From: Peptococcaceae bacterium
Lineage (GTDB): Bacteria; Bacillota; Desulfitobacteriia; Desulfitobacteriales; Syntrophobotulaceae
Assembly (NCBI GenBank): GCA_012517475.1
Contig: JAAYUV010000056.1
Location: 1 to 57,266, forward strand
Direction of reading: 5' to 3'
DNA length: 57,266 nt
Part shown: positions 16,422 through 50,836 of the stretch, one piece after another
Numbering within the stretch: the first letter of the stretch is position 1
How the letters are laid out: the number at the start of each line of letters is the position of its first letter
Translations under genes and position numbers: made by a program
The notes under the pieces: model-generated
Database searches by the model: none
Told to the model about the DNA's origin: nothing
Seen by the model: the letters and a program-made list of their open reading frames with translations, nothing else

Positions 16422-17192
16422 CTATTTCAGTACTTCTTGTATTTTAGTGATGAATGACTTAATCGCTTCTTCCGAATCGCCCTGAACGATATCTTTCTTT
16501 CTATCCATTTGTTCAGGTGCTTTGGTTTCGATCACTCCGAGGGTAGCCGACAGGTTCCCTATACCGGCATCTTCGGCACTCCAGATAGTCGCGGACTTCT
16601 TTCCGGCCGCCAAGATTTGTTTCATACTTGGGATTCTCGGCAGATTGATATCTGAAGTGACAGATATCACTGCAGGCAGGGAAATCTCTAAGGTTTCCAG
16701 CTCATTTTCCAGAGTGCGTTCCACGATAGCCTTGCCATCGGCAAGCGTTATTTTACTGACACTGTTGATTGCAGGCAAACTAAGGAGCTGCCCCAACTGA
16801 GGGCCCACTTGTTGGGCATAGAGGTCCGCTGATCCTTCTCCGCAAAGAATCAAGTCGTAATCCTTAATCTTTTCAGCAACCGCTTTTAAAGCATTGGCTG
16901 TTTGGTAGGTATCGATATTTTCCAATTTATCGTCCGCAACCATAAAGATGCTTTCCGGACCTCTGGACAATACATTTTTCTTTAATTTTGAATCATCAAT
17001 CTTTTTAGCCCCAACACTGATACCAATGACGTTTCCTCCATTGGCTTCTGCCAGCTGTGTTCCGGCTTCAATACAGTTTAAGTCATAGGCACTGATCGTC
17101 ATTGGAGCTTTTTCAAAGGAAATATCTCGATTAGGTTTTACCGTAATATCCTGTTCTTCAGGTACTACTTTAAAACATGTAATGATATTCAT
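16422..17192 (-). CDS. etfB: electron transfer flavoprotein beta subunit (FixA/EtfB)
   Basis: The 256-aa protein has features of the beta subunit: start MNIITCFKVVPEE, SAYDLNCIEAGTQLAE, GISVGAKK, DLILCGEGSADLYAQQVGPQLGQLL and IPSMKQILAAGKK. It partners EtfA from the next gene. AGAGGT precedes the ATG. About 495 bases separate it from the acyl-CoA dehydrogenase gene upstream. That space holds a hairpin-rich element, so etfB-etfA-fixC-fixX-ligase may be transcribed partly on their own. Confidence 0.95.
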   Translation of the reverse strand: MNIITCFKVVPEEQDITVKPNRDISFEKAPMTISAYDLNCIEAGTQLAEANGGNVIGISVGAKKIDDSKLKKNVLSRGPESIFMVADDKLENIDTYQTANALKAVAEKIKDYDLILCGEGSADLYAQQVGPQLGQLLSLPAINSVSKITLADGKAIVERTLENELETLEISLPAVISVTSDINLPRIPSMKQILAAGKKSATIWSAEDAGIGNLSATLGVIETKAPEQMDRKKDIVQGDSEEAIKSFITKIQEVLK

Positions 17193-17231: not shown

Positions 17232-17272
17232 AGAGCAGATAATTTGAAAAGAAACTTCATCTTATCTGCTCT
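17232..17272. repeat. 11-bp inverted repeat upstream of etfB
   Basis: AGAGCAGATAA (17232-17242) pairs with TTATCTGCTCT (17262-17272). It lies about 40 bases before the etfB start and has no T-tract in the direction of transcription. It could be an operator or a leader hairpin rather than a terminator. Confidence 0.5.
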
Positions 17273-17321: not shown

Positions 17322-17676
17322 CTAGTAGAATGATTCCAAGTAGTGATAAAATTGCTTAAACTACCCCAAATTAGTCTCTGTAATGGATAGATAGCGTCAA
17401 GCGGAGCACGGCGACGGCACTGGATGTGCCTAGGGTCGAATGCGTCATGGATGACATAGCATTCGACAAGGAGCGCGGCTGTTTGATGGCCATGGATGGA
17501 CTAACGCCGCGATGCCATGGATGGCAAGGAGCGGCTCGCCACGGATGGCCGTAAAGGCCTAGCAGGCCTTTACGCTGCTGAAAGCGTCTATCCATTACAG
17601 AGACCTGCCCGGATAAAGTGAAAATGATGCTATCATAGGCTCAATATATAATGCTATTTGCGAATCGTTCTACTAG
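17322..17676. repeat. hairpin-rich element with nested inverted repeats (MITE/REP-like)
   Basis: The ends are a 15-bp inverted repeat with one mismatch (CTAGTAGAATGATTC at 17322-17336 and GAATCGTTCTACTAG at 17662-17676). Inside is a perfect 16-bp inverted repeat (17374-17389 and 17589-17604). The core between these holds small hairpins that nearly all display GGAT: GGCAC-TGGAT-GTGCC (17416-17430), GTCATGGATGAC inside a 9-bp GTCGAATGC stem, GCCATGGATGGA, GCCATGGATGGC and GCCACGGATGGC. CGTAAAGGCC-TAGCA-GGCCTTTACG follows. Its base composition is more GC-rich than its AT-rich flanks. No open frame of worth is inside. It divides the acyl-CoA dehydrogenase gene from etfB and looks like a non-autonomous mobile or dispersed repeat. 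Confidence 0.75.
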
Positions 17677-17687
17677 TATTGAATGGT

Positions 17688-18839
17688 TTACTTTTTATAT
17701 TTTTTCAGAATCTCTCTGCCTGCGATATGAACCATGATTTGGTCTGTTCCGCCTGCAATCTGCCATCCTCTGGCATCCTGCCAAGCCCGTGATACACGGG
17801 TTTCAGTGGTATAACCCAAACCGCCGAAGATTTGAATGGCATCCGAGCAGACTTCGGTACCGGTCATACCGCAATAACGTTTGACCAAGGCAGACTCAAG
17901 CTTGATCGGAAGACCATTATCATGTCTCCAGGTAGCTTCATAGAGCAGGTTGTGCATATTCTTGATTTTGATTTCCATGTCGGTGAGCATTTGTTGAATC
18001 ATTTGCTGGCTGCCTATCGGTTTTCCAAACTGGATTCTTTCATTGGCATAAGCGGCAGCATCATCCATGGCTGCTTTGGCCAGACCAAGAGATTGTGCAG
18101 CAATGAGCAGACGTTCTACTTCAAAGTTTTTCATCAGCTGAAGGAAACCTTTATTTCTTTCACCGACGAGAGCACTTTCATCAATTTCTACATTGTCCAG
18201 GTACATTTCGCAGAAAGTAGTACTGGTCTGACCAATCTTGTGAAGCTGAGAAAATTTCACACCAGGTGTATCAGCCGGGAATAAATACATTGACATGTTT
18301 TTATTGGTTAACTCCGGCGACTCTTCTTTACAGACTACAAGTGTCCAAGGTGCTACATTTCCGTGAGTAACCCAAGTTTTTGCCCCGTTTAGATACACTT
18401 TCCCGTTCTTATGGGTAGCTACGGTGGTCATGGAACTGTTGTCCGATCCGGCTTGGGGTTCCGATATGGCTAAGGAAAATGCGGGTTTGCCGGTCTGTCT
18501 GTAAATCTCCATCGTCGTAGTGATCTGGTCCGGTCTGCCAAACTCAACCATATCATACATATTTAGAATGTTGGACATGAACGGGAATACTGCGGCTCCC
18601 TGTCTGGATAGCTCTTCACCTACGAGCATTAAAGTGGTCACATCTGCCGGAGTACCGCCATATTCTTCAGGAATCCCTAAGAAACCAAAACCTGCTTCAA
18701 TAAATGCCTTGGAGAATTTTTCAGAAACAGCGCCTTCTTTATAGAAAGTCTTGATATCTTCTTCGGTCACTTCTCTGGACATGAATTCTCTAAGGCTTTC
18801 CACTAATAATTCTTGCTCTTCGGTAAATTTAAAATCCAT
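17688..18839 (-). CDS. acyl-CoA dehydrogenase, CaiA-like
   Basis: The 383-aa flavoprotein has acyl-CoA dehydrogenase signatures: PEEYGGTPADVTTLMLVGEELSR, FSLAISEPQAGSDNSSMTTVA, NGAKTWVTHGN, the Gln-rich FAD contact AYANERIQFGKPIGSQQ, and DAIQIFGGLGYTTETRVSRAWQDAR. The C-terminal position that holds the catalytic Glu in YEGT-type enzymes reads IAGGT here, so Gly replaces Glu. Some family members place the base on another helix. The ATG at 18839 has AGGAG seven bases upstream, and the ATG two codons earlier is too close. Beside etfBA-fixCX it probably acts as an enoyl-CoA reductase, as CaiA does. Confidence 0.9.
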   Translation of the reverse strand: MDFKFTEEQELLVESLREFMSREVTEEDIKTFYKEGAVSEKFSKAFIEAGFGFLGIPEEYGGTPADVTTLMLVGEELSRQGAAVFPFMSNILNMYDMVEFGRPDQITTTMEIYRQTGKPAFSLAISEPQAGSDNSSMTTVATHKNGKVYLNGAKTWVTHGNVAPWTLVVCKEESPELTNKNMSMYLFPADTPGVKFSQLHKIGQTSTTFCEMYLDNVEIDESALVGERNKGFLQLMKNFEVERLLIAAQSLGLAKAAMDDAAAYANERIQFGKPIGSQQMIQQMLTDMEIKIKNMHNLLYEATWRHDNGLPIKLESALVKRYCGMTGTEVCSDAIQIFGGLGYTTETRVSRAWQDARGWQIAGGTDQIMVHIAGREILKKYKK

Positions 18840-18954
18840 TTTCATTCTCCTTTTTGTTTAATGTTGCTATGACAGCAATGGCCATTCAATTTGGAATAGG
18901 TGCTCCCCTCTCAGATACACCATGAAGATGTTGTATCTGAAGGGGAAATCATGA

Positions 18955-29784: not shown

Positions 29785-30040
29785 ATAAAATCCCCAAGTA
29801 TTATACTTAGGGACGAGTTACCGTGGTACCACCCTGATTACAAACCCGTTTTTCACGGGTTTATCACTTTTTACCCTATAACGCAGGGCCTGCGGAACAC
29901 CTTACCGCTACTTTCAGGTGTCCGGCTCCCGGGTGATCTTGGCTTAAAAATCCGGTCGTAATCTCTCAGCCTGCGATTACTTCTCTGTAGACTTTCTTTT
30001 AAGCTACTGTCCCGATCATGGCCGTTCATAAAACGCAGTA
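29785..30040 (-). ncRNA. T-box riboswitch of ileS
   Basis: On the minus strand AGGGTGGTACCACGG (29821-29835) is the conserved T-box sequence that pairs with the uncharged tRNA acceptor end. It is followed by a terminator stem CCTAAGTAT/ATACTTGGG and ATTTTATT. Upstream are the stem I elements GGGACAGTAGC, AGAGAAGT and GCTGAGAG. The candidate specifier is ATC (29935-29937), an isoleucine codon, which agrees with the downstream gene. Transcription should read through when tRNA-Ile is uncharged. Confidence 0.93.
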
Positions 30041-44201: not shown

Positions 44202-44392
44202 GTATCATGTCTCTTCCGTCTGCAGGCAGGTCTCCTGACTTGGTCTCATCACCCTGCGGCACCTTCCCGGCGCCTATACGCCAGTGGTCTTTTTGCCGAG
44301 GGCTCCTCCTTACAGTGGCGGGTCCGTCCGGGATTTACACCCGGTTCCCTATTATCCGTTGCTTAGCAACGGCACCTGAAGACATTTACTTG
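44202..44392 (-). ncRNA. cobalamin riboswitch of the cblS-cblT-ecfA-ecfT operon
   Basis: On the minus strand are GGGAACCGGGTGTAAATCCC, ACGGACCCGCCACTGT, GGGAAGGTGCCGC and the B12 box AAGTCAGGAGACCTGCCTGC, in the order of the cobalamin riboswitch. It ends about 90 bases before cblS. B12 should switch the operon off. Confidence 0.95.
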
Positions 44393-44485
44393 TAATTATA
44401 TTAACGTGAGAAAAATAATTTGGCAAGAGAAAAATATATGAGCGATTTCATGATCAATTAATATTTGACTCTTTATTTATACTGC

Positions 44486-50619: not shown

Positions 50620-50667
50620 ACCATCATCGCCGCTGCTTTCCTTTTCATAAACAAGGAAAGGCTTTTC

Positions 50668-50836
50668 TCTATCTCAGGCAGGTCTCCTGACTCAGACTCA
50701 AGCGACCGGAACGCTCCTTCCCGGCATCAGCCAGTGGATCAGCGGGGTCTCGTCTTTACAGTGGCGGGTCCGTACCGGACTTGAACCGGTTTCCCTATTC
50801 TCCCCTTCCGGGGCACCTAAGACAGGTGATCAATAT
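50668..50836 (-). ncRNA. cobalamin riboswitch of cobT
   Basis: On the minus strand are GGGAAACCGGTTCAAGTCC, ACGGACCCGCCACTGT, GGGAAGGAGCGTTCC and the B12 box GTCAGGAGACCTGCCTGAG. A terminator follows before cobT, which suggests control by transcription attenuation. Confidence 0.95.

Follow-up and report, generated by a model that had tools for sequence, protein, structure and literature searches.

A hairpin-rich element of 355 nt, at positions 17322-17676 of the window (the whole 57,266-nucleotide stretch of Peptococcaceae DNA analysed here), is in our judgement, with a probability of about 0.83, a non-autonomous mobile palindromic repeat, a composite of small double-hairpin modules. We show that the family is present in many copies, that the same site is empty in one species and filled in another, that modules have inserted into one another at precise positions, and that their stems and loops are conserved. 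The best reading is that the family is a new variant among palindromic mobile repeats of the MITE, REP and RPE kind; a literature search found no published description of it in these genera. The family, undescribed as far as we could find, reaches tens of copies in a genome and occurs in several anaerobe groups; it inserts into its own hairpin loops, and an empty site between species shows that it moves.

Anatomy of the composite and its modules

Two double-hairpin modules and two further hairpins make up the interior of the element, which is bounded by outer terminal repeats and, within these, a closing inverted repeat. The outer arms, CTAGTAGAATGATTC at 17322-17336 and GAATCGTTCTACTAG at 17662-17676, pair over 15 nt with one mismatch (93% complementary), the length given in a first-pass annotation of this DNA; that annotation also recognised the inner inverted repeat but put its arms at 16 bp, and they prove to be 18 nt long and 100% complementary (17374-17391 and 17587-17604, plus strand). 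Between these arms, all on the plus strand, lie module B (17412-17467), a nested double hairpin of the form CGACGGCAC-TGGA-TGTGCC TAG GGTCGAATGCGTCA-TGGA-TGACATAGCATTCGAC; module A (17485-17535), a double hairpin of 51 nt in which both loops are CATGGATG and which matches covariance model R1 with 76 bits (E 1.3e-15); a third GGA hairpin, seen in the fold, with loop CACGGATG (17536-17549); and the CGTAAAGGCC hairpin (17550-17574), which has GCGTGAAGGC instead in other copies and is the longer extra hairpin, here the GTAAAGGCC hairpin, that had been described at the first pass.

The same annotation counted five small hairpins built on YCAYGGATGR; there are indeed five NGGA hairpins, with GGA at 17422, 17449, 17494, 17519 and 17543, but the motif is exact in only four of them, the first hairpin having the variant CACTGGATGTG. 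The suggestion that GGA is displayed in loops agrees with the partition function, which leaves all five GGAs largely unpaired except for the last A of the fifth. When both strands were folded, as had been proposed, each strand of the 355-nt stretch came out about 9 SD below shuffles (z ~ -9), and 0 of 100 shuffles folded as well. The inverted repeats and hairpins at this place are far beyond chance, and they are multi-copy. An Rfam search of the element, at gathering and at relaxed thresholds, gave no credible match.

Alignment of copies puts the elementary unit at 51 nt: a first hairpin G(G/T)(C/T)CAnGGAnG(G/A)(C/A)C, a linker TARTG, and then a longer hairpin with the tip CAnGGAnG. The module stems covary, with changes on both sides in 5 of 15 pairs; the arms of the closing repeat also covary across 17 copies, this stem varying yet staying complementary, with both-side changes in 11 of 18 pairs, a value reached in 0 of 500 shuffles. 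Outer ends of the CTAGTAGA type occur on four complete elements in the host genome, that of the window and three others. CTAG stands at every end of these four elements and may be a target duplication; it is palindromic and thus indistinguishable from a terminal repeat. In the draft assembly of the host, the paired outer ends are all less than 400 bp apart, two single outer ends have no transposase nearby, and no full-length insertion sequence with the element's outer ends was seen.

Copies, spread and movement

The form of the element had been likened to a dispersed MITE or REP, and this likeness is upheld by 54 blastn matches and 78 covariance-model hits in the host genome, by a spread beyond one order and by an empty and filled site; instead of a single copy without relatives we find dozens of copies and many relatives. 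Most of the blastn matches in the host genome are to the core or to single hairpin modules, the only other match over the full 355 bases being C96:22385-22713 (73%), and the 78 hits were obtained with a model of the 51-nt double-hairpin module at E <= 0.01, in a draft assembly in which some copies stop at contig borders. In a search of relatives the covariance model matched 38 of 61 genomes, 70 times in the host and 1 to 65 times in each of the others. A pattern scan of named genomes identified carriers in Desulfosporosinus, Candidatus Formimonas, Syntrophomonas, Gracilibacter and others, and of 299 genomes sampled evenly across the phylum 14 carry the module, these carriers belonging to only six families. 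No matches came from scanning genomes and viral contigs with an exact pattern that was too specific, and no copies were found in plasmid and phage collections. A second MITE-like type, whose ends GGGGCTGTTGCAAAAC...GTTTTGCAACAGCCCC differ from the CTAGTAGA ends of the window element, encloses many core copies in the host genome (at L007, L014, L024 and other loci).

Movement is evident at the rplS-rbgA site, the one between-species empty site studied in detail (n=1). The site is empty in genome G002, where it reads GCTCTTTTG-TTTTCTATGGAGG, and filled in its congener G012, where it reads GCTCTTTT-GACGTCC...GAGCGGT-GA-ATTTCTATGGAGG, the module lying directly 3' of the terminator T-tract; no target duplication as long as 3 bp is seen in the comparison. 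At the same point a module is present in both genomes of the window's genus, the host's own with further palindromes nested inside it; no module stands there in six other genera, and in G003 the point is taken by a complex in reverse orientation. At several orthologous sites different species and genera all carry the repeat, so that some of the family may be of old date and have been maintained.

Modules are also found inserted in the loops of other modules exactly after GGA (CANGGA^N), at L030, L193, L002, L004, L077, L168 and L173. The host hairpin GTCCACGGA^TGGAC at L030 is interrupted by CGACGG...CGAC, the insertion at L193 lies at GGCCACGGA^GGGCC, and that at L077 and L168 lies at GCCATGGA^TGGC; at L002 and L004 the insertion point is GCACGGA^TGCGG, where L026 is empty, and it is module B that is present at this GGA^TG and absent in L026. 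These nested insertions cut right after GGA, and no duplicated target base was seen. Among standalone copies, a T-tract with its hairpin lies directly upstream on the same strand in 13 cases and in reverse in 4. Copies also occur in frame in protein genes, namely in an ABC-F-like ATPase gene (L155) and, as two tandem 17-codon units, at the C-terminus of a CbiF/CobM-like methyltransferase gene (L109), gene names at copy loci being our reading of translations and not a database result.

At L097 and, by sequence, also at L037 a T-box leader has a module directly behind its terminator. At L103, L169, L187 and L201 modules are flanked by another repeat, itself a composite, whose ends (GGTGGGATTCG...CGAATCCCACC) are like tRNA T-arms; it adjoins tRNA genes at three of these loci and carries the module in several genomes; insertion of modules inside the tRNA genes themselves was considered for these loci and rejected, as no tRNA call spans a module, and intact tRNAs lie beside the module at L103, L169 and L201, with none found at L187.

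Mobilisation and kinship with known repeats

We propose that modules move as units of roughly 50-60 bp, any target duplication being shorter than 3 bp, and that they land beside or inside hairpins, either directly 3' of terminator T-tracts or within the loop of another module at GGA^N; because insertion is beside or into hairpins, modules nest into larger inverted-repeat composites of the window's type. A candidate trans-acting enzyme would recognise both the hairpins and the GGA loops. No mobilising enzyme was found, and the Y1 (IS200-type) transposase showed no correlation with the module across 41 genomes. The CGTC-REPs likewise have no known mobiliser, so the family also offers a handle on that question.

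Among the closest known systems are the REPs of the GTAG and CGTC super-families, which like the present repeats are short, palindromic and high-copy, lie intergenically between unidirectional or convergent genes, and are in part intragenic or within other palindromes (PMC3733652). Our repeats could accordingly be REP elements moved by a Y1/HUH transposase, a RAYT or another, that works on hairpins in single-stranded form, and the match in size, palindromic form, copy number, intragenic copies and insertion in palindromes speaks for this (PMC3733652); we nevertheless hold it to be unlikely, because alignment and column counts show no GTAG tag in the module, Y1 is absent from the near-complete carriers G012, G017 and G033 and from the carrier G023, Y1 genes are present in the module-free genomes G011 and G030, and the left target varies (GGA, TTTG, CCG). 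The family thus differs from a GTAG-REP with its RAYT in having neither GTAG at the palindrome foot nor a Y1 association. A CGTC-REP, for its part, has a stem of 8-9 bp with complementary A/T at positions 1-2 (the foot), a CGTC tag and a CCA tail (PMC3733652), whereas our unit has two hairpins, 5-bp GC-rich stems and a fixed ANGGA loop, and contains CGTC only as the reverse of GACG, which places it outside the CGTC-REP definition. The text of the REP survey never mentions Firmicutes, Desulfitobacterium or Dehalobacter (PMC3733652).

Rickettsia palindromic elements (RPE) are likewise palindromic and, among other sites, enter protein genes in frame, but differ in sequence, structure and host phylum. 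With MITEs the family shares terminal inverted repeats and a non-coding, multi-copy, dispersed state, as well as the composite with CTAG ends; it differs in that no parental insertion sequence was found and in that modules also occur without terminal repeats. That the element is instead a structured regulatory element, a terminator or attenuator kept by selection at fixed operon positions, would suit its strong fold on both strands, the location of copies behind terminators and between genes that converge, and the orthologous sites filled in different genera; however, no terminator-like T-tract site was found in or around the window element, position and orientation vary, and presence is polymorphic, so that we regard this as very improbable.

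The GGA loop, CsrA and the host operon

In 85 distinct modules, detected with a covariance model whose seeds had conserved loops so that loop conservation may be inflated, GGA hardly varies in either loop, and the A that precedes it by two bases is present in 84 and 82 of the 85, respectively, with the facing base varying; a single base change would rarely push a module match of 60-80 bits below threshold. The T was lost with the facing A kept 33 times and the opposite occurred 2 times, so the loop sequence itself appears constrained, beyond pairing. A model-free tally also ranks NGGA loops first, on 39 different stems. The ANGGAX hexaloop on a stem is a high-affinity binding site of CsrA/RsmE (PMC4005645), and the SELEX consensus of CsrA is RUACARGGAUGU (PMC7652899). 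The module loop CANGGANG equals this hexaloop by sequence, and the host genome has one csrA gene. With a loop of exactly this type, binding by the host CsrA could be tested clearly and cheaply.

The first-pass annotation had seen a likeness to CsrA-sequestering RNAs, and at the level of the loop the likeness is exact; the sponge role it suggested finds no such backing. If each GGA-strand module bound a CsrA dimer, with copies acting as sponges or as cis-regulatory leaders, one could account for the hexaloop, for the A kept over the T, for GGA loops on so many stems, and for those sense copies that adjoin ribosome-binding sites upstream of putative glmS, dapF, rbgA and thiD. Relative to co-directional neighbours, called by a simple longest-ORF rule, standalone copies are however sense in 30 cases and antisense in 28, and composites sense in 12 and antisense in 27. 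Mispairs on the GGA strand show no bias toward G-U, with G-T against A-C at 15:9 in the modules (p 0.31) and 58:49 in the closing arms; a 12:2 excess of G-U, found at first in the closing stem, disappeared in this wider sample. All 14 carriers of the phylum sample have csrA, against 199 of 285 non-carriers (70%; Fisher p 0.008, uncorrected for kinship), but the gene is widespread in any case and the carriers span few families; among close relatives csrA presence does not discriminate carriers, and a single module match occurs in G035, a 100% complete genome that gave no csrA hit. The window copy is moreover antisense to its own operon. The orientation, wobble and csrA tests give an RNA role no support, and the GGA loops could just as well be explained by recognition during mobilisation, because the loops are observed landing sites; we consider CsrA-binding RNA decidedly unlikely. 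The family shares repeated ANGGA hairpin loops with CsrB/RsmZ-type RNAs, but is a dispersed genomic repeat with no strand bias and no Rfam match. In the Firmicutes phylum the known antagonist of CsrA is a protein, FliW. It would be a long shot that a mobile repeat spreads ready-made CsrA sites across several anaerobic Firmicutes classes, wiring genes to CsrA and titrating it, with the same GGA loops serving as landing sites.

To return to the mobile repeat in its setting, the element sits between an upstream acyl-CoA dehydrogenase gene (17688-18845; Pfam PF00441/PF02770/PF02771) and the downstream etfB, for a protein with an ETF beta subunit domain (16422-17192; Pfam PF01012). Both genes are on the minus strand, as had been noted at the first pass, so the operon mRNA bears UCC and not GGA loops. 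This mRNA would carry the element as a large UCC-loop hairpin between the two genes, where at most mRNA stability or polarity might be affected. A separate, imperfect AT-rich hairpin of 17 bp (88%) lies between the element and etfB at 17232-17272. Elsewhere on the minus strand of the window are two cobalamin riboswitches, at 44208-44394 and 50660-50835 (131 and 110 bits), and a T-box leader at 29806-30028, just upstream of a 1047-aa ORF.
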